From the NCBI GenBank assembly GCA_938034385.1, contig CALHLC010000039.1, positions 1-37,605 of the forward strand: DNA of 37,605 bases. Direction: 5' to 3'. This DNA comes from an uncultured Bacteriovoracaceae bacterium (GTDB lineage Bacteria > Bdellovibrionota > Bacteriovoracia > Bacteriovoracales > Bacteriovoracaceae). The position numbers and the translations under genes were made by a program. The notes beneath the pieces were generated by a model. It saw nothing but the letters and a program-made list of their open reading frames with translations. It was not told where the DNA came from and ran no database searches. How positions within the stretch are numbered: position 1 is the stretch's first letter; each line of letters starts with the position of its first letter. Positions 21,268 to 37,540 of this stretch are shown in pieces.

Positions 21268-22998
21268 TTATTGCTTGGATCCAGTCCAACCTGTAACCAT
21301 TTTACTACCTTTAAAGTATGTAAATACTTTCTTATCTAACTTAAGAGCTAAGTGCTCTAGGTCTTCTCTGCTTACTTTTTCAGGGAACTGGTAATAGACT
21401 TGTAGGATTTCTAGTCCTTTGTGGGGTATCGTTATGTTTTTCTTAATAACCTTATCTCTAAGCTTCAAACTAAACTCTAGGTTTTTGTGTTCACCTTTGG
21501 GAAGGATGAAAGTAAAGCGCAGACCATAAAGAAAAAATTTTTTATCAACAAGATCATAAGAGATAGATGTCCATTGATTAGGTTGGAGAGATGTTTGCTT
21601 GAGTCGAGGTTCGATCTCGTCATAGAAGTCATCATCTCGCACTTTAGAAAGTACGGCATCGGGGAAGTACTCCCTTTTGACTTGCAATACTAACTTGAGG
21701 TTATTGCATACAAGGAAGCCACTATAGGCTGAAAAACATGATTTTAAATTCGGATCTGATAGACGATTAATCTTTGTGTTGATTGAGATATGTTTGAAGC
21801 TATAAGATGGTGACAACCATCTTATAGGTAAATTTCTAAATGAACCTATACCACCAATGCATATGATTAGTAAGAAAGTCTTAAGAGTTGAGAGTTTTTT
21901 TGTTAGAGTAATAAGTAAACTAAAAAAAATAATTAAAACACCTACTTCCTGGATTAGATTATGCCTTTCAGTTGTTAGGAAAAAGGGATAAAAAGTTTTT
22001 ATTCCCCAGGGATAGAATGTCACAGTAATAAGAGAAGAGAAAAAGATCATTGAGAGCGCTACTTGCAAAGAATATTTCAGAAATCGATCTTTTGTTTTCA
22101 TTGAATAAAACAAAAAGAACATCTTTAAACTGATTCCGAAACATAAAGCAAGTAAAAAAGAAGAAGAGTCTTCGCTGAACTGAGAGAAGTTTATAAAAAC
22201 CTTGGAGTAGTGATAAGAGAGATTCATGAATATTTTCTTTATCAATAGGAAAAGAGAATCCAAAGGAAGGCTTTTAAGCTCTTGGTTTTCTGAGACTCTG
22301 ATAAAGAGTGTATAATAGATATAAAAAACGAAAAACGGAATTGTTATAATCATTGAATAGAATAACCACTGATTTTTCTTGTTGTTCTTTTTCTTTTCAT
22401 GAAGAAAGCAGTAAGTCAGTGTAGGGAATAGGCTAACTAGTAATGGTTGGGAAATTATGAATAATGGTGTAGCTATCTTGATGATTAAGGGGGTTGATCC
22501 ATCAGGGTCGTAAAGAAAGGCAACTAAGTATAAAGCAAGAGGAATACAGAAAAAATAACTAATATTTATTATTAACATCGTATCAAATGTAGCGATTGAA
22601 GAAAGTGTCAAAGAAAAAATAAACCGAATGAAATTAGATGGTACCAATTTACTAAAGCTTTTTCTTGTAAAGCAGTAGGAGCATAGGCTTATAAAGAAAA
22701 TAGTATAGAAACTATGAGCAAAACCTATATACTGATCCTTTACTCCGAATGTATAAAATAAATAAGAAGGAAGTCTTTTCGCGAAGGGGATATAATTATG
22801 ATCCATTAGGAAGAATTGTTTTAAACCTCCGTTAGATAGGGCGGTGTATTTTCCAAAATATTCATAGTCAATTAAATACCCTTTGAAGTGGGTTTCAAAA
22901 TGAAAAATATAATAGAGAAAAAAAGTTAGGATGATTCCAAAGTAAAAGAGATAGTTTGTTTTTATTTCAGACGAAATAGATTTTGATAAAGAATTCAA
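21268..22998 (-). CDS. Polytopic membrane protein of unknown function, tandem paralogue 1
   Basis: 576 residues. About ten hydrophobic segments fill residues 15-390, and a soluble, probably beta-rich domain makes up the last 185. After the first membrane helix an acidic LIDYEYF stretch sits in the first outer loop, where GT-C glycosyltransferases carry their metal/catalytic acid. Membrane topology also resembles GT-C or O-antigen-polymerase proteins, but no signature is decisive. It is the downstream twin of the gene at 23086-24816, with the same length and no large indels that I can see. The start is TTG at 22998, directly after an in-frame TAA, with a promoter-like -10 only about 10 bases upstream. 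It is convergent with the YyaL gene, 3 bases apart. Confidence 0.85.
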   Translation of the reverse strand: MNSLSKSISSEIKTNYLFYFGIILTFFLYYIFHFETHFKGYLIDYEYFGKYTALSNGGLKQFFLMDHNYIPFAKRLPSYLFYTFGVKDQYIGFAHSFYTIFFISLCSYCFTRKSFSKLVPSNFIRFIFSLTLSSIATFDTMLIINISYFFCIPLALYLVAFLYDPDGSTPLIIKIATPLFIISQPLLVSLFPTLTYCFLHEKKKNNKKNQWLFYSMIITIPFFVFYIYYTLFIRVSENQELKSLPLDSLFLLIKKIFMNLSYHYSKVFINFSQFSEDSSSFLLALCFGISLKMFFLFYSMKTKDRFLKYSLQVALSMIFFSSLITVTFYPWGIKTFYPFFLTTERHNLIQEVGVLIIFFSLLITLTKKLSTLKTFLLIICIGGIGSFRNLPIRWLSPSYSFKHISINTKINRLSDPNLKSCFSAYSGFLVCNNLKLVLQVKREYFPDAVLSKVRDDDFYDEIEPRLKQTSLQPNQWTSISYDLVDKKFFLYGLRFTFILPKGEHKNLEFSLKLRDKVIKKNITIPHKGLEILQVYYQFPEKVSREDLEHLALKLDKKVFTYFKGSKMVTGWTGSKQ

Positions 22999-23085: not shown

Positions 23086-24816
23086 CTATTTTTCGGTGCC
23101 GGCCCACTCTACAATAACTTCGTCATTTTTTAGATAAGTTGATATTTCTTTGTCTATCTTCATAGATAAAGTTGATAGGTCCTCTCTTTTTATCTCTTCA
23201 GGGAATTGATAATATATTTGTATGAACTCCATTTTTTTATGGGGAACGATAATTTTTTTCTTAATAGAATGCCCTTTGAATTTGATGTGTAGTCCTATGT
23301 TTTTATATTCTTTTCCAGAGACTATCATTGTAAGTCGAAGGCCATAGAGAGAAAACTTATCACTTACTAAGTTGTAAGAGATTTTTTTCCATTTATTGGC
23401 TTGAAGTATTTTGGGCTTAAACTTTACTTGTACCTGCTTAAAAGAACCGTCATCTTGGATTTTAGATAACTCCGTTTCTGGCATTTTATATTTGTTTAAT
23501 TTCACAAGCAATCTAATATTGTAGCACATTAAAGATCCTCTATATCCTGAGAAACATGACTTTGGAATTGGATTGAAGTGGCGATTAACCTTTGTATTTA
23601 ATGAGATATGTTTAAAACTATGTGATGGGCTATACCATCTTTGTGGTAGATATCTAAAAGAACCAATACTGCCAATGAGCAGGATTGAAAGTACAGTCAC
23701 AATGGGTGAGAACTTCTTAGTCATAGAAATAATTAAGCTAAAAATAATAATTAATATTCCGACTTCTTGAATAAAATGATATTTCTCTGTTACATCAAAA
23801 TAAGGAAAAAAGACTTCTATTCCCCACGGAAAGAAGGAGATTGCTATAAAGGAGGAGAATGCAATCATTGAAGTCGCAACTTGCAAAGAGTATTTAAGGA
23901 ATTTGTCTTTAGTTTTCATTGAATAATAAATTAAGTAAATCTTTAAACCTATACCAATTATTAAGGAAGTAATGAAAACGGCTGATAAGTCATAGAAGTC
24001 TGAGCTAGTGGAGAAAATCCTAGAGTAATGAAAAGAAATGTTCAGTAGTACTTTCTTGAATAACAAGAAAGTAGAATCAAGCGAAAGACTTTTTAACTCT
24101 TGATTAACCGAAACCTTTACGAAAAGAATATAAAATATATAGAACACATAAAAAGGGATTATTGAGAATATTGAGAAAAGCATCCATTTGCTTTCCATGC
24201 TTTTTTTTCTTCTGTTCTGAAAAGCACAATATAGGAAAGCGGGGAAAAGGCTAACTAATAATGGTTGTGATATTATAAATAGTGGTGAAGCTATTTTTAT
24301 AAAAAGTGGAGTAGAGCTTTCAGAATTATGGAGAGAAGCAATTAAATAGAGAGCTAATGGAATGCAGAAATAATAATTAATATGTATCATTAACATTGTA
24401 TCAAGAGTTGCAAGAGAGGAGAAAGTCAAAGAAACAATGAATCTAATCAGGCTTGATGGAACTAATGAACTAAAGCTCTCCCTTGTAAAGCAATAAGAGC
24501 ATAAGCTAATAAAGAGGATAGTATAAAAACTGTGAGCGAAGCCAAGGTATTGATCTTTTAGTCCAAGCGTATAAAACATGTAAGAAGGAATTCTCTTAGT
24601 GATTGGAATATAGTTATGATCTATCAAAAGAAATTGCTTCCAGCCAAGATTAGAATTTACTGTGTATTTATGAAAATATTCATTATCAACTAGGTGACCC
24701 ATGAAGTGGGTGTCATGATGAAAAATGTAATAGAGGAAAAAAGTTAGCAAAATTCCAAAGTAAAAAAGAATGTTAAATTGTATTTCAGACGAAATAGATT
24801 TTAATAAAGAATTCAA
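23086..24816 (-). CDS. Polytopic membrane protein of unknown function, tandem paralogue 2
   Basis: 576 residues, the twin of 21268-22998. By eye well over half the residues are identical. Conservation is highest in the N-terminal loop (NEYFHKYT, DHNYIP, RIPSYMFYTLGLKDQY) and the KTKDKFLKYSLQVA segment; the C-terminal soluble domain is most diverged. The acidic LVDNEYF motif after helix 1 is kept. The divergence shows that both copies have been maintained for a long time and are probably both functional. Like its twin it starts with TTG (24816) straight after an in-frame stop, without a Shine-Dalgarno. Possible glycosyltransferase or polymerase role is inference from topology only. Confidence 0.85.
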   Translation of the reverse strand: MNSLLKSISSEIQFNILFYFGILLTFFLYYIFHHDTHFMGHLVDNEYFHKYTVNSNLGWKQFLLIDHNYIPITKRIPSYMFYTLGLKDQYLGFAHSFYTILFISLCSYCFTRESFSSLVPSSLIRFIVSLTFSSLATLDTMLMIHINYYFCIPLALYLIASLHNSESSTPLFIKIASPLFIISQPLLVSLFPAFLYCAFQNRRKKSMESKWMLFSIFSIIPFYVFYIFYILFVKVSVNQELKSLSLDSTFLLFKKVLLNISFHYSRIFSTSSDFYDLSAVFITSLIIGIGLKIYLIYYSMKTKDKFLKYSLQVATSMIAFSSFIAISFFPWGIEVFFPYFDVTEKYHFIQEVGILIIIFSLIISMTKKFSPIVTVLSILLIGSIGSFRYLPQRWYSPSHSFKHISLNTKVNRHFNPIPKSCFSGYRGSLMCYNIRLLVKLNKYKMPETELSKIQDDGSFKQVQVKFKPKILQANKWKKISYNLVSDKFSLYGLRLTMIVSGKEYKNIGLHIKFKGHSIKKKIIVPHKKMEFIQIYYQFPEEIKREDLSTLSMKIDKEISTYLKNDEVIVEWAGTEK

Positions 24817-26243: not shown

Positions 26244-27716
26244 TTAAGGTCTAAAGTATTTATACCATGTTCGGCCTACGATTATTTTACTTTCTTCAAT
26301 TTTTCTTGATTCATCTAATAGTTCCATGGACTCGGCATATGAGAGAAGTCTATTTTCCTTTTTAGAGATTTTATCAAGATATTCGAACATAATCGCACCA
26401 ACGTCTTCTATAGTCATGAATGTACGAATTTGAGTAATAGACATATTTAGAGGCATCTTTTTTTTGAGTTTTTCCTTAGAGTCTTGAAGAAATTTTATAG
26501 GAATTTTGTTCCTTCGTAATGTCCATCCAGTCAAAGCTTTAACTTTGCTTTTAAGCTTTGCTCGTAACGTAAAGTTATCATTTTCCATCCATTCAAACAT
26601 TTTTGTAAGAATAGCATCTTTCATCCTGATCTTTCTTAGTTCTTTTGGATTTCTCCATTCGGCAACTAATTCAAATCTATGATCAAATTCATAATCGCCT
26701 GGACTCAGAACTTTGAAGTTTTGAATATTTTTCTCAGTAACCTGAACTCCAATTGATTGAAGAAATGGCAAGAGTGATAAAGAAAATCTTGATTTCGTAT
26801 AGGGAATATCTGTCTTTTCTTCAAGGCATTGGAATCCAGCATGAGCAACTTCAGAACAAAAAAGTCTATCAGTTTTGTCATGCTCCATTCCAAAATCATA
26901 TTCAATGATATTTCCTTTCTCTTGTCTTAATTTGACCCTTTCAAACATGCACTTACTAGCTAGGTGAGCTTCTTTTTTATCATTGTATCGAAATACAACT
27001 GTTCTAGCATTTTCTTGATCTATATGAACTTTAATATCAGCTGTTACATTTCCAACTTCTATATGTGACTCAGTTGTATAGAGTCTACCAATTTTGTCTT
27101 TATAGACAAAACTCATATGACTAAACTGAGAATCTACTGAAGCTATTCTTGAAATAGCTGCACTCGTATAAGCTTTTCCTCTGGATAGAACAACATCTCC
27201 AGATTTTAAATCATTATAGTGAGTAAATGAGTTTTTATAGTCAGGGTGAACAAGAAAGTATGTTCCAAAGCCAGTTAAAGTTTTATATTTATGAGAATCT
27301 TTTTTTGCTAATTCAATATTTTCTATTAAAAAGTCTTCAAGATACCTTAATGCTCTTGTGAGGTTTCTATAATTTTCAAAGCAATTATTTAAATTAGGAT
27401 TGTCATTAATAAATTTTAAATGCTTTCTAGAATCTACTCTTATTTGAAAACTTAAATCAATTGCTTTTGATTTCTCTTCTAAGCCAATTGTATCTAGTTG
27501 GACATCGTCCTGAGTTAAACCATACATTTTATCATATGCATTACTCAGCATTTCTTGAGAACAAAACTCTTCCGAGTTATCTTGGAGAGCAAACTTATGA
27601 AGTTGTTTCAAATCTTTAATATAAGAGTCATGAACTTCGCTATTTGATGGAGATCTCAAAGAGATCGTTTGAGTACATGAACACAGAATTAATAATATTA
27701 CAGCTAAATTTTTCAT
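26244..27716 (-). CDS. Lipoprotein of the permuted NlpC/P60 (YiiX/YaeF-like) family
   Basis: 490 residues. A lipobox LCSC places the lipidated residue at Cys14. A helical region precedes the catalytic-looking domain (about 145-300). There SGDVVLSRGKAYTSAAISR is followed by FSHMSFV with His200, TESHIEV with Glu216, and after about 70 residues RLFCSEVAHAGF with Cys287. This His-first, Cys-later order is that of the circularly permuted papain-like proteins (YiiX, YaeF/YebB, related to LRAT acyltransferases). Members act on peptides or on lipid acyl groups, so the substrate is open. The start codon overlaps the stop of the PLD-like gene by four bases, indicating joint production. Confidence 0.82.
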   Translation of the reverse strand: MKNLAVILLILCSCTQTISLRSPSNSEVHDSYIKDLKQLHKFALQDNSEEFCSQEMLSNAYDKMYGLTQDDVQLDTIGLEEKSKAIDLSFQIRVDSRKHLKFINDNPNLNNCFENYRNLTRALRYLEDFLIENIELAKKDSHKYKTLTGFGTYFLVHPDYKNSFTHYNDLKSGDVVLSRGKAYTSAAISRIASVDSQFSHMSFVYKDKIGRLYTTESHIEVGNVTADIKVHIDQENARTVVFRYNDKKEAHLASKCMFERVKLRQEKGNIIEYDFGMEHDKTDRLFCSEVAHAGFQCLEEKTDIPYTKSRFSLSLLPFLQSIGVQVTEKNIQNFKVLSPGDYEFDHRFELVAEWRNPKELRKIRMKDAILTKMFEWMENDNFTLRAKLKSKVKALTGWTLRRNKIPIKFLQDSKEKLKKKMPLNMSITQIRTFMTIEDVGAIMFEYLDKISKKENRLLSYAESMELLDESRKIEESKIIVGRTWYKYFRP

Positions 27717-30385
27717 TTTCCTCTCTTTGATAAATATATTTTACAGTTTGTAAGTAAAGTTTTTTGCCAATCTAATAATTCATTTAGGTCTAGTTCTCTA
27801 AGAGAACCGTCTGTATTCATTACTGAATTATCAGGTTTTGTTCTACTGAGAGTATTATTGTTAAAGATACCAATTTTGACCGTTTTTGTTAATTTTTTAG
27901 ACTTCTTAGCTAGAGCTCTAGTTACTTGGGTGACATCTTCTTTACTCCTAGCCGAAAATGAAAAAAGATGAAGTTTTTCACGCGTGCTACCATCTGCCCC
28001 GATGAGATAAAGATATTTTTTTGGTATTTTCTTAGAGCTAAGCTTTGATACTTCACCTTCAATAAGTTTAACCACTTCAGAAGTATCAGCTACCTGGATA
28101 AAGTTTTTCGTTGGTATTAAACTTTCAATATGATTTTTCTTCTTTAGGAATGCAAAGATCTTTTCGAGGTCTTCGTTAGATACAATTTTAGAATAAACCT
28201 TTACTTGATTCCCATTGTTGGCCTTTAAGGCCCACTGGATTTCATTAAATGCTGATCCCATAAGCTTTGAAGGATTGTCACCTTCATAAGTTTTTATGAA
28301 GTCATCATAAGTAAACTTCTTTGTATCAAACTTGATAATGTTATTATCAAATTCGAAGATGAAATTAGTTTTTTGAAAAGGAGACTCAATCTTAATCTCT
28401 TGGCCTAAGGTGAAAATAAGATTTCTTGTTTTGTTAAGACCAAGTACCTTTTTCATTTCTCTAACCGTCTCTTGAATAAGAACATCGTCGGCACCTTCTG
28501 AGATTTGAGAAATTAACTTTTTTCGTAGTTTTCTAGCTACTCTGATCTTCTTTTTATTACTAACGTTTGCATTTTTAAGTACTTGGACAAGGGTTCTGCT
28601 TTCTTGTTTTGCTTTTATTGCGAGGTATTCGGTTGCTCCTGAAATTCTCTCGACAACTCTTGGGTTATTTGTCGCTGCAATTGTTTCATTACTATTTTCA
28701 GCATTTTTACTAAAGTTGAATGAACTAACAAATAAGGTCCAATCACCGGATCTTACAACCTTACTATGAATCTTGGCAGTCAGAGGGATTCTTTCCCCAT
28801 TACTTAATTGAACCCAATTATTACCATATTCGCTTGAGCCAACAAAGACACTCATTTGTCTTATCTCTTCTAAGAGTTCTGGGCCAAGTTCTTGTAGGAA
28901 CTTAGACTTTTTGTCTTCCTTATAAATAGTGATTCCCGTATATGGATCAACTGTAGCTTTATAACCGGCCATGACTAAAAACTGAGACCATTCTCGTTTA
29001 GCAAATGGAGGATCTCCTACAAAACGAAGTATTGGCTTTTGACCATTTGCTATAATAAATTTGATTTTTTCTAGTATTTCGTTAGAGATAGTTTCTGATG
29101 AGTGAGCAAAAATCATCATATCAATTTCCGGACCCTTTCCTTCTCGAATCATTTTGCCAATGAAGTTATAGTTTATATCATCAATTGCACCTTGCGGAGC
29201 AAATGCTAAAAAATAGCTTATAGGTTTTTCACTAGATGTATCAATGATTTGAAATGCACCACTTACAGGATATTGTGTTCCACGCAAACCACTGAAAGTA
29301 TAGTCCATGTTGTGTTTAATCGTTGCTGCAAAACTATCACTTTTAATAACAGCAAGATGATTTGAATTTGGCTTGGCATACTTTAAAACCTTTTGTGCGT
29401 CTTCTGATTCTAAAATTCTTTTTTGTTCAGATAGAGGTAGGTTTGCAAAATCTCCGAGTGGATGAATTCCAGAGTTTGTAAAATTCCCTGATGATAGAAT
29501 TACTTTTGATTCACCTTTTAAATCATGATCTATAACAATCATTTTTTGATGATTGATTCCTACCGAGTCTATCTCTTTAACATCTATCCCTGCTGCCTTT
29601 AATCTTTCAGCTACTTCTTTTACAGCATCACTGTGCTCTATTGCATCTAAATCTATCCCCACAGTGATTTTCACTTTTGGGTTAGTTTTTTTCTTTGCTA
29701 TTAGTGCATCAGCTATTTCTTTGTTGCTAAACTCATAGACATTGATACTGATATCAGACTTCGCTGATTCTATGTTTTTAACAATTACATCAATTAAGTT
29801 ATCAGGCTTTTGAACAGGAAGAGCTTCTCCTGCTTCATTTGTAATGTAATGAGAAAAGTTTTTGTCTGTTTCTTTTAGTTCTCTGTTGATTATTTCATGA
29901 GTCCAATATGTTTTGACTGCATCTTTTTTAAATTTCTCTTCTATTTTAAATGGTTCGGTTGATTTGAAAAGTTCTTTTAAGTCTTTAGCGACACTTTGCT
30001 TCTTGAAAAAGTTTGAAGCTTCTTTTCGTAAGGAATCTCGAACTTTAAGCAACTTCTCAGGAGATTTTTTAGACTTAATTACTTCTTGGGTATATCTGTC
30101 GAGTAAATTGTAGACTTGTTCATATTTATTAACTAGCTGTATAAGTTGTGTTTCATTTAAAGTTTTGATGGATTTTTGATTAATTCTATATTCGTCTAAT
30201 TCTTCAGGTGTGAAAAGTTCAATGTCTTTGAGTAATTCTTCTAAGAAATCTTCAAAATACTTTCTTGTTTCTAAGCTTTTATAAATCTCTCTTACAACTG
30301 CAAGCTTAGATTTTAATGAGCGGGCGGCGTATACTACCGGAGAGAGTGAGAGTGAAAGAAGACATAATAAGAGTAATTTTTTCAT
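27713..30385 (-). CDS. Exported phospholipase-D-superfamily protein with two HKD domains
   Basis: 890 residues with a signal peptide (1-20). A helical N-terminal region (about 25-185) is followed by two PLD domains. The first has the full motif NHQKMIVID (His279, Lys281, Asp286) and SSGNFTNSG. The second has KIHSKVVRSGD (His540, Lys542) and SSFNFSKNAENSNE with Glu567. In the second motif the aspartate position is Gly547, with Asp548 one residue late, so it is slightly degenerate. About 300 residues of unknown character follow. Substrates in this superfamily include phospholipids and nucleic acids. Location outside the cytoplasm and coupling to an LRAT/NlpC-like lipoprotein favour an envelope or prey-directed role (inference). 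Confidence 0.88.
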   Translation of the reverse strand: MKKLLLLCLLSLSLSPVVYAARSLKSKLAVVREIYKSLETRKYFEDFLEELLKDIELFTPEELDEYRINQKSIKTLNETQLIQLVNKYEQVYNLLDRYTQEVIKSKKSPEKLLKVRDSLRKEASNFFKKQSVAKDLKELFKSTEPFKIEEKFKKDAVKTYWTHEIINRELKETDKNFSHYITNEAGEALPVQKPDNLIDVIVKNIESAKSDISINVYEFSNKEIADALIAKKKTNPKVKITVGIDLDAIEHSDAVKEVAERLKAAGIDVKEIDSVGINHQKMIVIDHDLKGESKVILSSGNFTNSGIHPLGDFANLPLSEQKRILESEDAQKVLKYAKPNSNHLAVIKSDSFAATIKHNMDYTFSGLRGTQYPVSGAFQIIDTSSEKPISYFLAFAPQGAIDDINYNFIGKMIREGKGPEIDMMIFAHSSETISNEILEKIKFIIANGQKPILRFVGDPPFAKREWSQFLVMAGYKATVDPYTGITIYKEDKKSKFLQELGPELLEEIRQMSVFVGSSEYGNNWVQLSNGERIPLTAKIHSKVVRSGDWTLFVSSFNFSKNAENSNETIAATNNPRVVERISGATEYLAIKAKQESRTLVQVLKNANVSNKKKIRVARKLRKKLISQISEGADDVLIQETVREMKKVLGLNKTRNLIFTLGQEIKIESPFQKTNFIFEFDNNIIKFDTKKFTYDDFIKTYEGDNPSKLMGSAFNEIQWALKANNGNQVKVYSKIVSNEDLEKIFAFLKKKNHIESLIPTKNFIQVADTSEVVKLIEGEVSKLSSKKIPKKYLYLIGADGSTREKLHLFSFSARSKEDVTQVTRALAKKSKKLTKTVKIGIFNNNTLSRTKPDNSVMNTDGSLRELDLNELLDWQKTLLTNCKIYLSKRGK

Positions 30386-30546
30386 GAGTATACCTTTTGT
30401 CTACTTTATCAAAAATAGCTCTAATTATCCTTAGAATGCATTTAAAGCCTAGTTGGAGATTTTCTATATTGCGCGAAGTTATCAATGTGAGTACCAAGGA
30501 TATGTAATATCTATGTAGTCTTAACTTATGTTAATCCTTCAAATGT

Positions 30547-30587
30547 AAGGAGGTGTTAGATTGCTTGTGGAGATAAGAACTAGGTAG
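30547..30587 (+). promoter_or_regulatory. Possible 8-codon leader peptide with strong ribosome binding site
   Basis: AAGGAGG (30547-30553) stands seven bases before TTG (30561), which opens a short frame MLVEIRTR ending in TAG at 30585-30587. The start codon of the next gene follows six bases after this stop, in the same frame. No better ribosome binding site serves that gene (only AGG in ACTAGGTAG about 10 bases away). This suggests reinitiation or translational coupling from the leader. Position and spacing are seen directly; function is inferred. Confidence 0.35.
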
Positions 30588-30593
30588 AAAATT

Positions 30594-31895
30594 ATGAACT
30601 TTAAACACAATATAGACATAATAGATGAAACTTTAAGAGAGGGCTCTGAGAGATCTCCTTATTATGTTGATCTTAATACTAAGATAAACCTAGCTCAGGA
30701 TATTTTGAATTCTGGAGTAAGATCGTTAGTTGTAGGAATGTTTCCAGATGTTCCTGAGAATATTGAGCTGTTAAAAGAGCTCTTAAGACTGCAAACAATT
30801 GGTGAGATTAGTAAAGATAAGCGTTTTATCATTATTTCTCATCTTGGTAAAAGGTTCCATGAAACAACTCAAATATTAGAAGAGTTTGGAATAGAAAATG
30901 ATTCGGTTTGGATCTTAGCCATTCATGGTGCTTCTAATCAACAAATTAAATATTTATTTCCTAAAATTTATAATGAAACTGAGATTGATAAAATTAATAC
31001 TCTTGAATGGATGGATTTATCTGACCAAGAGAGAAAGCAAGTTAACTTAGAATGGTTTGAAAACTTTATAAGTAAAAATAAATCAAAAAATGGTTCAAGA
31101 ATAATGCTTGGTTTATTAGATTATTTTAGAGCAGACCTTGATTTAATCGATTACTTTTTATCTGTTGCTATCTCTCATGATATTTCTCAAATTAGACTTG
31201 TAGATAGTGCAGGAACGTGTCGGCCTGATCAATTACAAGAATATGTAGGTCGAAAAATTGAAAAGTTTTCAATGCTCAAATTTTACGGTCATTTTCACAA
31301 TGATTTTGGGCTAGCAACAAGTAATGCTCTAATTGGACTTTCTATGGGCATGCAAGGGGTAGATGTTTCTCTTGGAGGCTTTGCAAATAGAGCAGGTCAC
31401 CCAGCTCTTGCTGAAATTGCTTATGGACTAAAAAAGCTTTATGGACAAGACCTTCCATATTTCAAATATGAAAACCTTTTTCAACTAAGTAGGAAAGCTG
31501 AACAAGTTTATGGTTTGATAGAAAACCCTACGTCGCCAGTCACAGGAGTGATTACAAGCACCACCACAACAGGAATAAGAACAGAGTTAGAAAAAATGAG
31601 TCCCGATATTTTTGACATTAGCATACCTGAAGAAGTTGGAACAAAAGTATTTAAAACTTTAGGATCACGATCTGGAATAGATGGACTTAAAAGGTTTATA
31701 AAAGAAAAGAATCTTTTAATAGATGAGAGTAAGCTTAATGAGATTTACAAAGGATTAATGAAATCTTGGACTGAGAAGTCAAATAAAAGAAAAGAAAAAT
31801 CTAAAAAACTAATAACCCAATATCAAGAGAATCTAAAATCATCTTTATATACAGAAGATGAAATTTTAGAAACTTTAAACACTTTAAAAGGATAA
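30594..31895 (+). CDS. DRE-TIM metallolyase (isopropylmalate/homocitrate-synthase-like), divergent
   Basis: 433 residues. An N-terminal TIM barrel carries the HMGL-like signature IDETLREGSE (Asp11, Arg15, Glu16), RLVDSAGT around Asp204, and the metal-binding GHFHNDFG (His233, His235). These enzymes join an acyl-CoA to an alpha-keto acid or cleave the reverse product. The usual G-x-GERaGN loop of isopropylmalate synthases reads GGFANRAGHPALAE here, so it is not a standard LeuA, and the C-terminal 110 residues are too short for the leucine-feedback domain. The reaction cannot be named. It is followed 3 bases later by a diiron-oxidase-like gene, and the two probably form one pathway. Confidence 0.88.
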   Translation: MNFKHNIDIIDETLREGSERSPYYVDLNTKINLAQDILNSGVRSLVVGMFPDVPENIELLKELLRLQTIGEISKDKRFIIISHLGKRFHETTQILEEFGIENDSVWILAIHGASNQQIKYLFPKIYNETEIDKINTLEWMDLSDQERKQVNLEWFENFISKNKSKNGSRIMLGLLDYFRADLDLIDYFLSVAISHDISQIRLVDSAGTCRPDQLQEYVGRKIEKFSMLKFYGHFHNDFGLATSNALIGLSMGMQGVDVSLGGFANRAGHPALAEIAYGLKKLYGQDLPYFKYENLFQLSRKAEQVYGLIENPTSPVTGVITSTTTTGIRTELEKMSPDIFDISIPEEVGTKVFKTLGSRSGIDGLKRFIKEKNLLIDESKLNEIYKGLMKSWTEKSNKRKEKSKKLITQYQENLKSSLYTEDEILETLNTLKG

Positions 31896-31898
31896 ATC

Positions 31899-32939
31899 AT
31901 GAACACTTTACATCAGATTTTGAGATTAATGAAAGGAACTTATAATAAAGCAGAGCTTTATAGAGATGAGACTGTTTCAGATATTTTAAATGCAAAAGTA
32001 GACGAGATTATCTCAGATGTATTAGCAGGTAAAGAAAAAGGCTTTGAAAATTTACATAGAGCACTTTATGAAATTTATATCTGTCACTTTGTTGCACCTT
32101 GGTCTGAAGACGTTTTAGATGTGAACGATTTACAAATCTTAACAATAAGAACAAAGCTTGAGAAAGTTTGGGAGCAAGTTCTAGAGAGTAAATATGAAGA
32201 TGAGATAGAGGCATTGGCAAATTCAAATGACTTTTTTAATGATCTTGAAAAAACAATTCATAGTCATCATTCAGGAGTTGATCACCCTCTTTTTTCATAC
32301 CTTAAAGACAATGCAAGCTTAGAGGACTTAAGAGAATATATAAGACAAGAAGGTCCATTTGATTTATGTTTTTCAGATATTCTTTGCTATTTAATGCCTG
32401 GTGTATATGGACAAAAAAGAATCGAGATCGCTTCAAACTTTTGGGATGAAATAGGAAAAGGTAGACAAGATAGAACTCATAGAAAATTGAGAATCAAGCT
32501 GATGAATACTCTTAATATTAATGAGCAAGAGCATATTCAGCACCCTTCAAAATATTGTTGGGAAGAATTAGCTTTAGCAAATTTTTATTTCAAGTCTAGC
32601 TTGAATCGAAAGAAAAACACTCAGGCCTTAGGTGCTTTGTTATGTGTTGAAATGGCAGTGCCAGGAAAGATGAACTATGTTTATGATGGTCTAAAAAGAG
32701 TAGGCCTTGATGATAAAGATTTAGTTTATGTAAGTGAGCATAGTGTTGTTGATATTAAACATGCTCAAGGCTGGAGAGATGATGTATTGACTCCTTTATT
32801 AGAACAAAGACCGGATTTAAGACAAGAAGTTTTAAAGGGTGTTTTTGGGAGACTTGAAGTAGCTGGAATTGTATGTGAAAAATTATTTAAATTAGTTACT
32901 GATAAAAATGATCAAAATCAAAGTACAGCAGCTGTTTAA
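31899..32939 (+). CDS. Haem-oxygenase-like diiron oxidase (iron-containing redox enzyme family)
   Basis: 346 residues, no signal peptide. After a helical N-terminal extension (1-125) comes the HDO-type seven-helix domain, starting with DHPLFSYL. The metal ligands typical of the family are all present: Glu184 in FWDEIGKG, His194 in RTHRKL, Glu251 in LLCVEMAVPG, then His281, Asp285 and His288 in SEHSVVDIKHAQGW. Relatives such as UndA, BesC and SznF use two irons and O2 to oxidise or cleave amino or fatty acids. The substrate here is unknown. The start lies 3 bases after the DRE-TIM lyase stop, so the product of that enzyme or of its pathway is a candidate substrate. Confidence 0.88.
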   Translation: MNTLHQILRLMKGTYNKAELYRDETVSDILNAKVDEIISDVLAGKEKGFENLHRALYEIYICHFVAPWSEDVLDVNDLQILTIRTKLEKVWEQVLESKYEDEIEALANSNDFFNDLEKTIHSHHSGVDHPLFSYLKDNASLEDLREYIRQEGPFDLCFSDILCYLMPGVYGQKRIEIASNFWDEIGKGRQDRTHRKLRIKLMNTLNINEQEHIQHPSKYCWEELALANFYFKSSLNRKKNTQALGALLCVEMAVPGKMNYVYDGLKRVGLDDKDLVYVSEHSVVDIKHAQGWRDDVLTPLLEQRPDLRQEVLKGVFGRLEVAGIVCEKLFKLVTDKNDQNQSTAAV

Positions 32940-32949
32940 GTGAAAGCCT

Positions 32950-32973
32950 AGGCTCACTACTTTAAGTGAGCCT
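32950..32973. terminator. Perfect hairpin between convergent genes
   Basis: AGGCTCACT (32950-32958) pairs with AGTGAGCCT (32965-32973) around ACTTTA, nine pairs. No long T run follows on either strand, so termination efficiency is uncertain. Its position between the oxidase and DUF2853 stop codons suggests a bidirectional terminator. Confidence 0.55.
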
Positions 32974-36380: not shown

Positions 36381-37220
36381 TCATACCACTATCAAACTCG
36401 GTTTAACATAGTTTTTTTCTATTTTTATAATTTTAGCTTTTGGTGCAGGAGGTCTGTAATTCAATGAACTATGTGGCCTATAATGATTGTAATGATACAC
36501 CCAATCTTTAAGCACATAATTAGCTTCTCTTAAATTATAAAATATTTCTCCATTCAATAACTCATCTCTCATTTTTCCATTGAAAGATTCACAATAACCA
36601 TTCTCCCAAGGGCTACCAGGCTCTATATACAAAGTTTTTACCTTCAATCTCTTTAACCAATCTTGAAGATCAAGTGCTATGAACTCTGCTCCATTATCTG
36701 ATCTTATATAATCAGGTAAACCTCTACTTATAAAGAGCTGCCCTAAAGATTCGATCACTGTCTCTGAGTTTTGTTTTCTTCTAGCAAAGCTTAATAAACA
36801 CTCTCTTGTATACTCATCAATAATATTAAGAATTCTAAAGCTCTTCTTATCAGGGTAAGTACGATCAAAAACAAAGTCATAGCTCCAGACATGATTTTTA
36901 TATTCAGGTCTTTTTCTTATACAGCTATTATCATTCAACCAGAGTCTTGATCTCTTAGGTTGTTTACTAGGTACCTTTAATCCTTCTTGAGTCCATATTC
37001 GCTCAACTTTCTTATGGTTAATTACAATCCCTGCATTTTTAATCAAAGCTGTAATCCTAGGTGTTCCATATCTTCCATATTCACTAGCTAAATCTATTAC
37101 CTTCTTTCTTATGAGTTGATCCCTAGGAGATTCATAATACTTATATCTTTGTGTGCTTCTATTTTGACCTATGAGTTTACAGCCTTTTCTTTCTGAGACT
37201 TTAAACTTCTCCATAGTCAT
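36381..37220 (-). CDS. IS3-family transposase OrfB (catalytic part)
   Basis: 279 residues from the first ATG. An HTH_21-type N-terminal region (GQNRSTQRYKY, EYGRYGTPRITALI) precedes the rve integrase core. The DDE triad is Asp115 in VWSYDFVFD, Asp175 in YIRSDNGAEF and Glu211 in NGYCESFNGK, with 35 residues between the last two as expected. The frame is open further upstream to a TAA just before the slippery site at 37256-37262, so the natural product is an OrfAB fusion made by -1 frameshifting. Stand-alone OrfB from the ATG may also be made. The frame appears intact. Confidence 0.96.
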   Translation of the reverse strand: MTMEKFKVSERKGCKLIGQNRSTQRYKYYESPRDQLIRKKVIDLASEYGRYGTPRITALIKNAGIVINHKKVERIWTQEGLKVPSKQPKRSRLWLNDNSCIRKRPEYKNHVWSYDFVFDRTYPDKKSFRILNIIDEYTRECLLSFARRKQNSETVIESLGQLFISRGLPDYIRSDNGAEFIALDLQDWLKRLKVKTLYIEPGSPWENGYCESFNGKMRDELLNGEIFYNLREANYVLKDWVYHYNHYRPHSSLNYRPPAPKAKIIKIEKNYVKPSLIVV

Positions 37221-37249
37221 ATGAACTGCTTGCCTCTTCCGTTGAGTGC

Positions 37250-37540
37250 TTAGAAGTTTCCCTTAGATATCTCCTTATGAACGGCTATTTCAAGTTGTTG
37301 ATCAGCTACAATTTTTTTTAGTCTTAGGTTTTCTTTTTCAAGTTGTTTTAATCTTTTTGCTTGATCAACTTGCATTCCACCGTATTCTTTTTTCCATCGG
37401 TAGAAAGTATTGTCACTAATTTGGAATGTTCTACAGCAATCTCTTAGATTTTTACCTTCTGCTAATAAGGATTCAATACCTCTTAGAATCTTAATGATTT
37501 GTTCTGGTTTAAAGTTTTTCCTTCCCATTTTCTTCTCCAT
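37250..37540 (-). CDS. IS3-family transposase OrfA (DNA-binding part)
   Basis: Helix-turn-helix protein of the IS3 OrfA type: FKPEQIIKILRGIE, then NLRDCCRTFQISDNTFYRWKK (helix-turn-helix with WKKEYGG), followed by a leucine zipper-like coil (LKQLEKENLRLKKIV). The ATG at 37528 is the more likely start, as GGAG sits seven bases upstream and MGRKNFK is the usual family beginning; the longer frame starts at 37540. Its last codons contain the G_GGA_AAC slip site, joining it to OrfB. Confidence 0.93.
   Translation of the reverse strand: MEKKMGRKNFKPEQIIKILRGIESLLAEGKNLRDCCRTFQISDNTFYRWKKEYGGMQVDQAKRLKQLEKENLRLKKIVADQQLEIAVHKEISKGNF
37256..37262 (-). other. Programmed -1 frameshift site GGGAAAC
   Basis: In the OrfA frame the minus strand reads AAG GGA AAC TTC TAA, so G GGA AAC is a canonical X XXY YYZ slippery heptamer one codon before the OrfA stop. 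Shifting -1 here gives LLSTQRKRQAVHM leading straight into OrfB. It must be used here, because the OrfB frame has a TAA just upstream of the site. Confidence 0.85.

Follow-up and report, generated by a model that had tools for sequence, protein, structure and literature searches.

What could be made, or broken down, by a two-gene unit that joins a DRE-TIM barrel enzyme to a haem-oxygenase-like diiron oxidase (HDO)? The question is raised by a pair of genes in an uncultured Bacteriovoracaceae bacterium (genome of 2.67 Mb in 66 contigs), which lies on contig C39 within the window, the term used here for the whole stretch of DNA analysed (37,605 nucleotides). DRE-TIM enzymes are mostly annotated as LeuA-like. 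The HDO superfamily has more than 10,000 members, of which about a dozen have been functionally validated (PMC13108848). The original prediction for this locus was of keto-acid extension by the barrel enzyme followed by oxidative processing by the HDO, in a pairing for which no described pathway was known. The literature accessible to us, whose coverage leaves out most subscription papers, contained no such pathway. Both enzyme superfamilies are known; the barrel clade and the pairing of its members with an HDO appear to be undescribed.

Gene organisation and conservation

The locus consists of the following features.

30515..30593, + strand: conserved 5' leader of the operon (about 85-93% identity to locus L032 of the sister genome; single copy in the genome of the window, G000, and in the sister genome, G003)
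30594..31895, + strand: DRE-TIM barrel protein, 433 aa, forming a separate clade (PF00682 71.7 bits; tree; NCBIfam equivalog scores all far under the cut-offs)
31899..32939, + strand: HrmI-like haem-oxygenase-like diiron oxidase, 346 aa (PF14518 129.3 bits; HrmI profile E 9.5e-39)
32950..32973, no strand assigned: perfect 9-bp hairpin, AGGCTCACT-ACTTTA-AGTGAGCCT, in the gap between the HDO gene and the DUF2853 gene, which converge (read by eye)

Both reading frames are on the + strand (30594-31895 and 31899-32939) and, as had been predicted, the HDO gene begins three bases after the lyase gene, with 3 nt between them. The pair is under strong purifying selection: compared with the sister genome, the barrel protein is 82% and the HDO 84% identical at the amino acid level, and dN/dS is 0.08 for each gene, at a dS of about 1.5 at which synonymous sites are saturated. 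With the low E-values of both domain matches given below, this conservation shows that the two genes are no chance reading frames. The DNA before the first start codon is also conserved. Its last 60-85 nt are 85-89% identical to the sister genome and its last 40 nt 92.5%, compared with 60-75% just upstream of the leader; two intergenic regions close by reach 52% and 39%. The hairpin beyond the HDO gene is probably a terminator, and a hairpin of different sequence is found by eye at the same place in the sister genome. As far as can be read from the DNA, the barrel and HDO genes would form a real transcription unit.

Several other observations concern this region. The leader (30515-30593) holds two tiny reading frames, ATG...CAAATGTAA and TTG-LVEIxTR-stop, together with a TTAAC-N4-GTTAA palindrome. 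A structured leader RNA was considered and rejected (no Rfam match; fold z-scores of -0.9 and -0.6). No foreign-DNA signal was detected, the GC and GC3 of the pair being like those of neighbouring genes. At 31893-31910 the barrel gene of the window stops earlier than its counterparts in Tistrella and the sister genome, where it overlaps the HDO start. Upstream, two large genes on the - strand (26244-30385) are conserved next to the pair in the sister genome too: one encodes a secreted-looking protein of 890 aa with a PLD domain, which had no match at E 1e-20 in six other relatives searched, and the other a protein of 490 aa that weakly resembles YiiX permuted papain-like enzymes. Further upstream are two adjacent - strand ORFs of 576 aa each (21268-22998 and 23086-24816), possibly a tandem duplication, and an IS3-like transposase pair (36381-37540; OrfA/OrfB-type ORFs, by eye) lies about 3.4 kb 3' of the HDO gene.

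The barrel protein: fold, motifs and phylogeny

The barrel protein matches the Pfam HMGL-like family (PF00682) with 71.7 bits and an E-value of 8e-20. Its motifs are found where the original prediction placed them, with DETLREG at residues 11-17, HFHND at residues 233-237 and ANRAGHP, in place of the usual GERAGN, at residues 264-270; the predicted lack of a leucine-feedback domain was borne out by the Pfam domain scan, which returned no LeuA regulatory domain. The ANRAGHP loop is invariant across the three barrel homologues; the other two motifs vary little, reading DESLREG and HFHDD in the Tistrella protein. Where HMG-CoA lyase has a GGCPYA loop with the catalytic Cys, the alignment places GGFANRAGHP. 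The protein falls well short of every NCBIfam equivalog cut-off: its best score is 103.6 bits against a cut-off of 462.9, and it reaches at most 104 bits against Claisen synthase models with cut-offs of 413-950 bits.

In a tree of 22 sequences the three barrel proteins form a clade of their own, with 100/100 support and a long stem (2.46). It had been foreseen that the lyase might instead group inside a known LeuA, homocitrate synthase or HMG-CoA lyase clade. The barrel clade falls outside all the sampled LeuA, NifV, phosphonomethylmalate synthase, citramalate synthase and HMG-CoA lyase sequences. The tree program warned of long-branch attraction; the separateness of the clade can therefore be taken as safe, and its deeper placement cannot.

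The barrel protein: active site

The residues that matter for the chemistry of the barrel protein are these.

30636..30641, + strand: R15-E16, an Arg that is conserved and the first of the metal ligands (RDG/REG; alignments)
31116..31118, + strand: L175, at the position of the catalytic Glu, E227 of MAMS (alignments; mutant data from PMC11532901)
31290..31304, + strand: HFHND, with the HxH metal ligands H233 and H235 (alignments)
31383..31403, + strand: ANRAGHP loop replacing GERAGN (alignments, tree)
31578..31580, + strand: R329, at the position held in MAMS by the catalytic base His, H388, in the SGIH motif (alignments; PMC11532901)
31611..31613, + strand: F340, at the position of Tyr399 of MAMS (alignments; PMC11532901)

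The best structural match to the barrel protein, judged by sequence, is the solved MAMS (6e1j). In MAMS the metal is bound by Asp90, His288 and His290, Arg89 and Thr257 touch the 2-oxo acid, and a set of His388, Tyr399 and Glu227 is also conserved in IPMS (PMC11532901). Among mutants of Arg89, Glu227 and His388, only E227Q and H388N retained activity, which was reduced; Y399F had very little activity, and T257S remained active (PMC11532901). Residues were mapped by counting along the pairwise alignment with MAMS, in which the numbering of that paper was reproduced at HxH, and were checked on an alignment of 13 sequences. R15, E16, H233, H235 and S205 of the barrel protein correspond to Arg89, Asp90, His288, His290 and Thr257 of MAMS, and the metal site of the Claisen synthases (Arg, Asp/Glu and HxH) is thus present as R15, E16, H233 and H235. 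The Glu/Tyr/His enolisation triad, on which acetyl-CoA condensation depends wholly or almost wholly in MAMS, is replaced by L175, F340 and R329. The same Leu/Phe/Arg replacements occur in the Tistrella protein, and the triad is missing in all three homologues. With the first set present and the second replaced, the site appears to have kept its metal/2-oxo-acid half and to have lost its acetyl-CoA half. AlphaFold models of the barrel protein and the HDO, built from two-sequence alignments, were too poor to use (mean pLDDT 44 and 43) and were discarded.

The protein thus shares the barrel, RDG/REG, HxH and traces of the linker and C-terminal sub-domain with the Claisen-condensing DRE-TIM synthases (IPMS/LeuA, the homocitrate synthase NifV, citramalate synthase and MAMS), but it differs from them in having Leu, Phe and Arg for the catalytic Glu, Tyr and His, and ANRAGHP for GERAGN. 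Taken alone, the loop change is a weaker sign, because the motif reads GERAGM in phosphonomethylmalate-type enzymes and GERNGI in one homocitrate synthase. The 2-phosphonomethylmalate synthase-like proteins, to which the barrel protein is 24-26% identical, are likewise DRE-TIM enzymes with a varied GERAGN Asn and serve specialised metabolism; however, they keep the SGIH histidine and are encoded beside or near PEP mutase genes.

The HDO

32448..32762, + strand: putative diiron ligands E184, H194, E251, H281, D285 and H288 (invariant in the HDO alignment; aligned with HrmI)

The second protein matches PF14518 (Haem_oxygenas_2) with 129.3 bits (cut-off 28.9, E 2e-37). The full set of six 3His/3carboxylate ligands named in the original prediction, which the HDO superfamily carries on three core helices, is in place; these residues are unchanged in four HDO homologues and align with those of HrmI and SznF. 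The closest solved HDO by sequence is HrmI, at 2.8e-24 with the single sequence and 9.5e-39 with a four-sequence profile, and SznF, RohS and BesC are well behind. HrmI acts on lysine, whose side-chain amine it oxidises to nitro at a 3His/3carboxylate site, and HDOs which share this ligand set differ in the reaction that they catalyse (PMC13108848). As the nearest solved relative is HrmI, an amino acid or amine is a first guess at the substrate; as the same ligands serve different reactions, the reaction itself cannot be read from the sequence. The likeness to HrmI (and BelK), an L-lysine N6-oxygenase, extends over the PF14518 type, about 240 alignable residues and the 3His/3carboxylate pattern, but it is distant, with identity at roughly a quarter of aligned residues, and the window has no assembly-line genes.

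HDO matches were found in 39 of the 129 class members searched, many of which have no barrel gene. The genome of the window has a second, shorter HDO (G000:C64:3677-4144, an open frame of 244 residues). By eye, a relative from the same family (L040, G066:C96) has an HDO domain fused to a cupin-like C-terminal part, as in SznF, and this fusion gene adjoins an ATP-grasp-like gene.

Distribution and gene context

The barrel gene is rare. A profile search across 369 genomes of the phylum was positive in 2, which belong to one genus, and did not find the gene in two other congeneric genomes; a scan of genome contigs with one sequence matched the sister genome only. In one genome (G002) an empty site could not be made out, as gene order around the DUF2853 orthologue is not preserved. 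Homologues in other phyla were sought in plasmid records, where the only full-length close relative of the barrel protein is on pTM3 of Tistrella mobilis (about 44-45% identity; 38% for its HDO). The two genes overlap by about 46 nt in Tistrella and about 50 nt in the sister genome. At all three barrel loci found, from two phyla and with two of the loci in one genus, an HDO gene lies directly 3' of the barrel gene, so the pairing held up against the concern that the two genes might rarely occur together. The association does not run the other way: none of ten plasmid HDOs of 27-35% identity has a barrel gene beside it in annotations or ORF lists. Viral contigs gave no match to either profile, and phage records only partial, weak LeuA-like matches.

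In Tistrella the gene order is PALP enzyme, barrel, HDO, flavoprotein, ATP-grasp protein and two MFS proteins. The PALP enzyme scores 408 bits against a cystathionine beta-synthase model, under its cut-off, and 329 against cysteate synthase. The flavoprotein has a weak Pyr_redox_2 match, and within the plasmid set it has no other relatives than two Shinella proteins annotated as SidA/IucD/PvdA; the ATP-grasp protein weakly matches BacD-type ligases, dapdiamide ligases and LAL_C2. These genes suggest a cluster that makes a peptide-like small molecule from an unusual amino acid. The earlier remark that the pair has no transporter or ligase next to it is right for the window and fails for the Tistrella homologue, which has an ATP-grasp ligase-like protein and two MFS exporters. 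A related arrangement is found on plas1 of Burkholderia stagnalis, where an HDO with 33% identity directly follows a cystathionine-synthase-like PALP gene, of a family that the Tistrella cluster includes as well, but where there is no barrel gene and other tailoring genes take its place.

A pathway completed by genes elsewhere in the genome was considered and rejected: the Tistrella-type flavoprotein has no detectable match in the Bacteriovoracaceae genomes, and ATP-grasp matches there are weak only. For these reasons the Bacteriovoracaceae product may be different from that of Tistrella, or much simpler. A PALP homologue is present in all four congeneric genomes, with or without the pair.

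Possible functions of the pair

Our preferred reading, which we hold tentatively and at a little less than an even chance, is that the two genes are one biosynthetic operon: the HDO would oxidise an amino acid, and the barrel protein would carry out an aldol or retro-aldol step without enolisation of acetyl-CoA. The operon would make or modify an unusual amino-acid-derived metabolite. With its diiron site and O2, the HDO would oxidise its substrate, an amino acid or close derivative, by N-oxygenation, desaturation or cleavage, and the barrel protein would bind a 2-oxo or 2-hydroxy acid at a divalent metal and make or break the adjacent C-C bond, acetyl-CoA not being enolised. The same pair occurs in a richer cluster of an unrelated bacterium, and a real small-molecule pathway is therefore indicated. 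That both enzymes act on one substrate is something we infer, as are the order of the steps, the exact reactions and the product.

Three other explanations have been weighed. The two enzymes may be catabolic or housekeeping, with the HDO opening an amino-acid-like compound from prey or the environment and the barrel protein cleaving the product in a retro-aldol reaction. Predators of this lineage import the amino acids of their prey, and the window has just the two genes, with no ligase or exporter nearby; set against this are the very patchy distribution (2 of 369 genomes) and the ligase and exporters which accompany the pair in Tistrella, and we consider the explanation unlikely. Somewhat more doubtful is the keto-acid extension of the original prediction. 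In this version the barrel protein would act as a Claisen synthase, condensing an acyl-CoA with a 2-oxo acid, and the resulting 2-alkylmalate-type compound would be oxidised by the HDO. The barrel protein is indeed most like the Claisen-condensing side of its superfamily, with the metal site, linker and C-terminal sub-domain kept. However, the triad residues are Leu175, Phe340 and Arg329, the GERAGN loop is altered, and no LeuC-type isomerase was found in the genome, whose single aconitase-family match is an open frame of 908 residues. Both the loss of the triad and the lack of this isomerase speak against keto-acid extension.

It is more improbable still that the HDO gives stand-alone protection from oxidative stress, with the barrel protein as a metabolic passenger. 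There is a precedent in DtpC of Acinetobacter, an HDO-domain protein able to protect against desiccation-linked oxidative stress (PMC13232832), and the many relatives with HDOs and no barrel gene would fit a free-standing role. Yet the closest solved relative is an amino-acid oxygenase, HrmI, and an unrelated bacterium has kept the pair within a cluster that looks biosynthetic.

A more novel scheme would be that the HDO N-oxygenates an amino acid, giving a nitro or hydroxylamino compound, whose activated carbon the barrel protein then adds to a 2-oxo acid in a metal-dependent aldol step of the Henry type, or releases from one in a retro-aldol step. We regard this scheme as a long shot, and know of no described DRE-TIM chemistry of this kind. 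If it were true, an activated nitro or hydroxylamino carbon would replace the acyl-CoA enolate in DRE-TIM chemistry.

Implications

A named strain, Tistrella mobilis KA081020-065, carries the pair. The conserved pair, an HDO and a DRE-TIM enzyme without the acetyl-CoA machinery, may represent a new and testable reaction.
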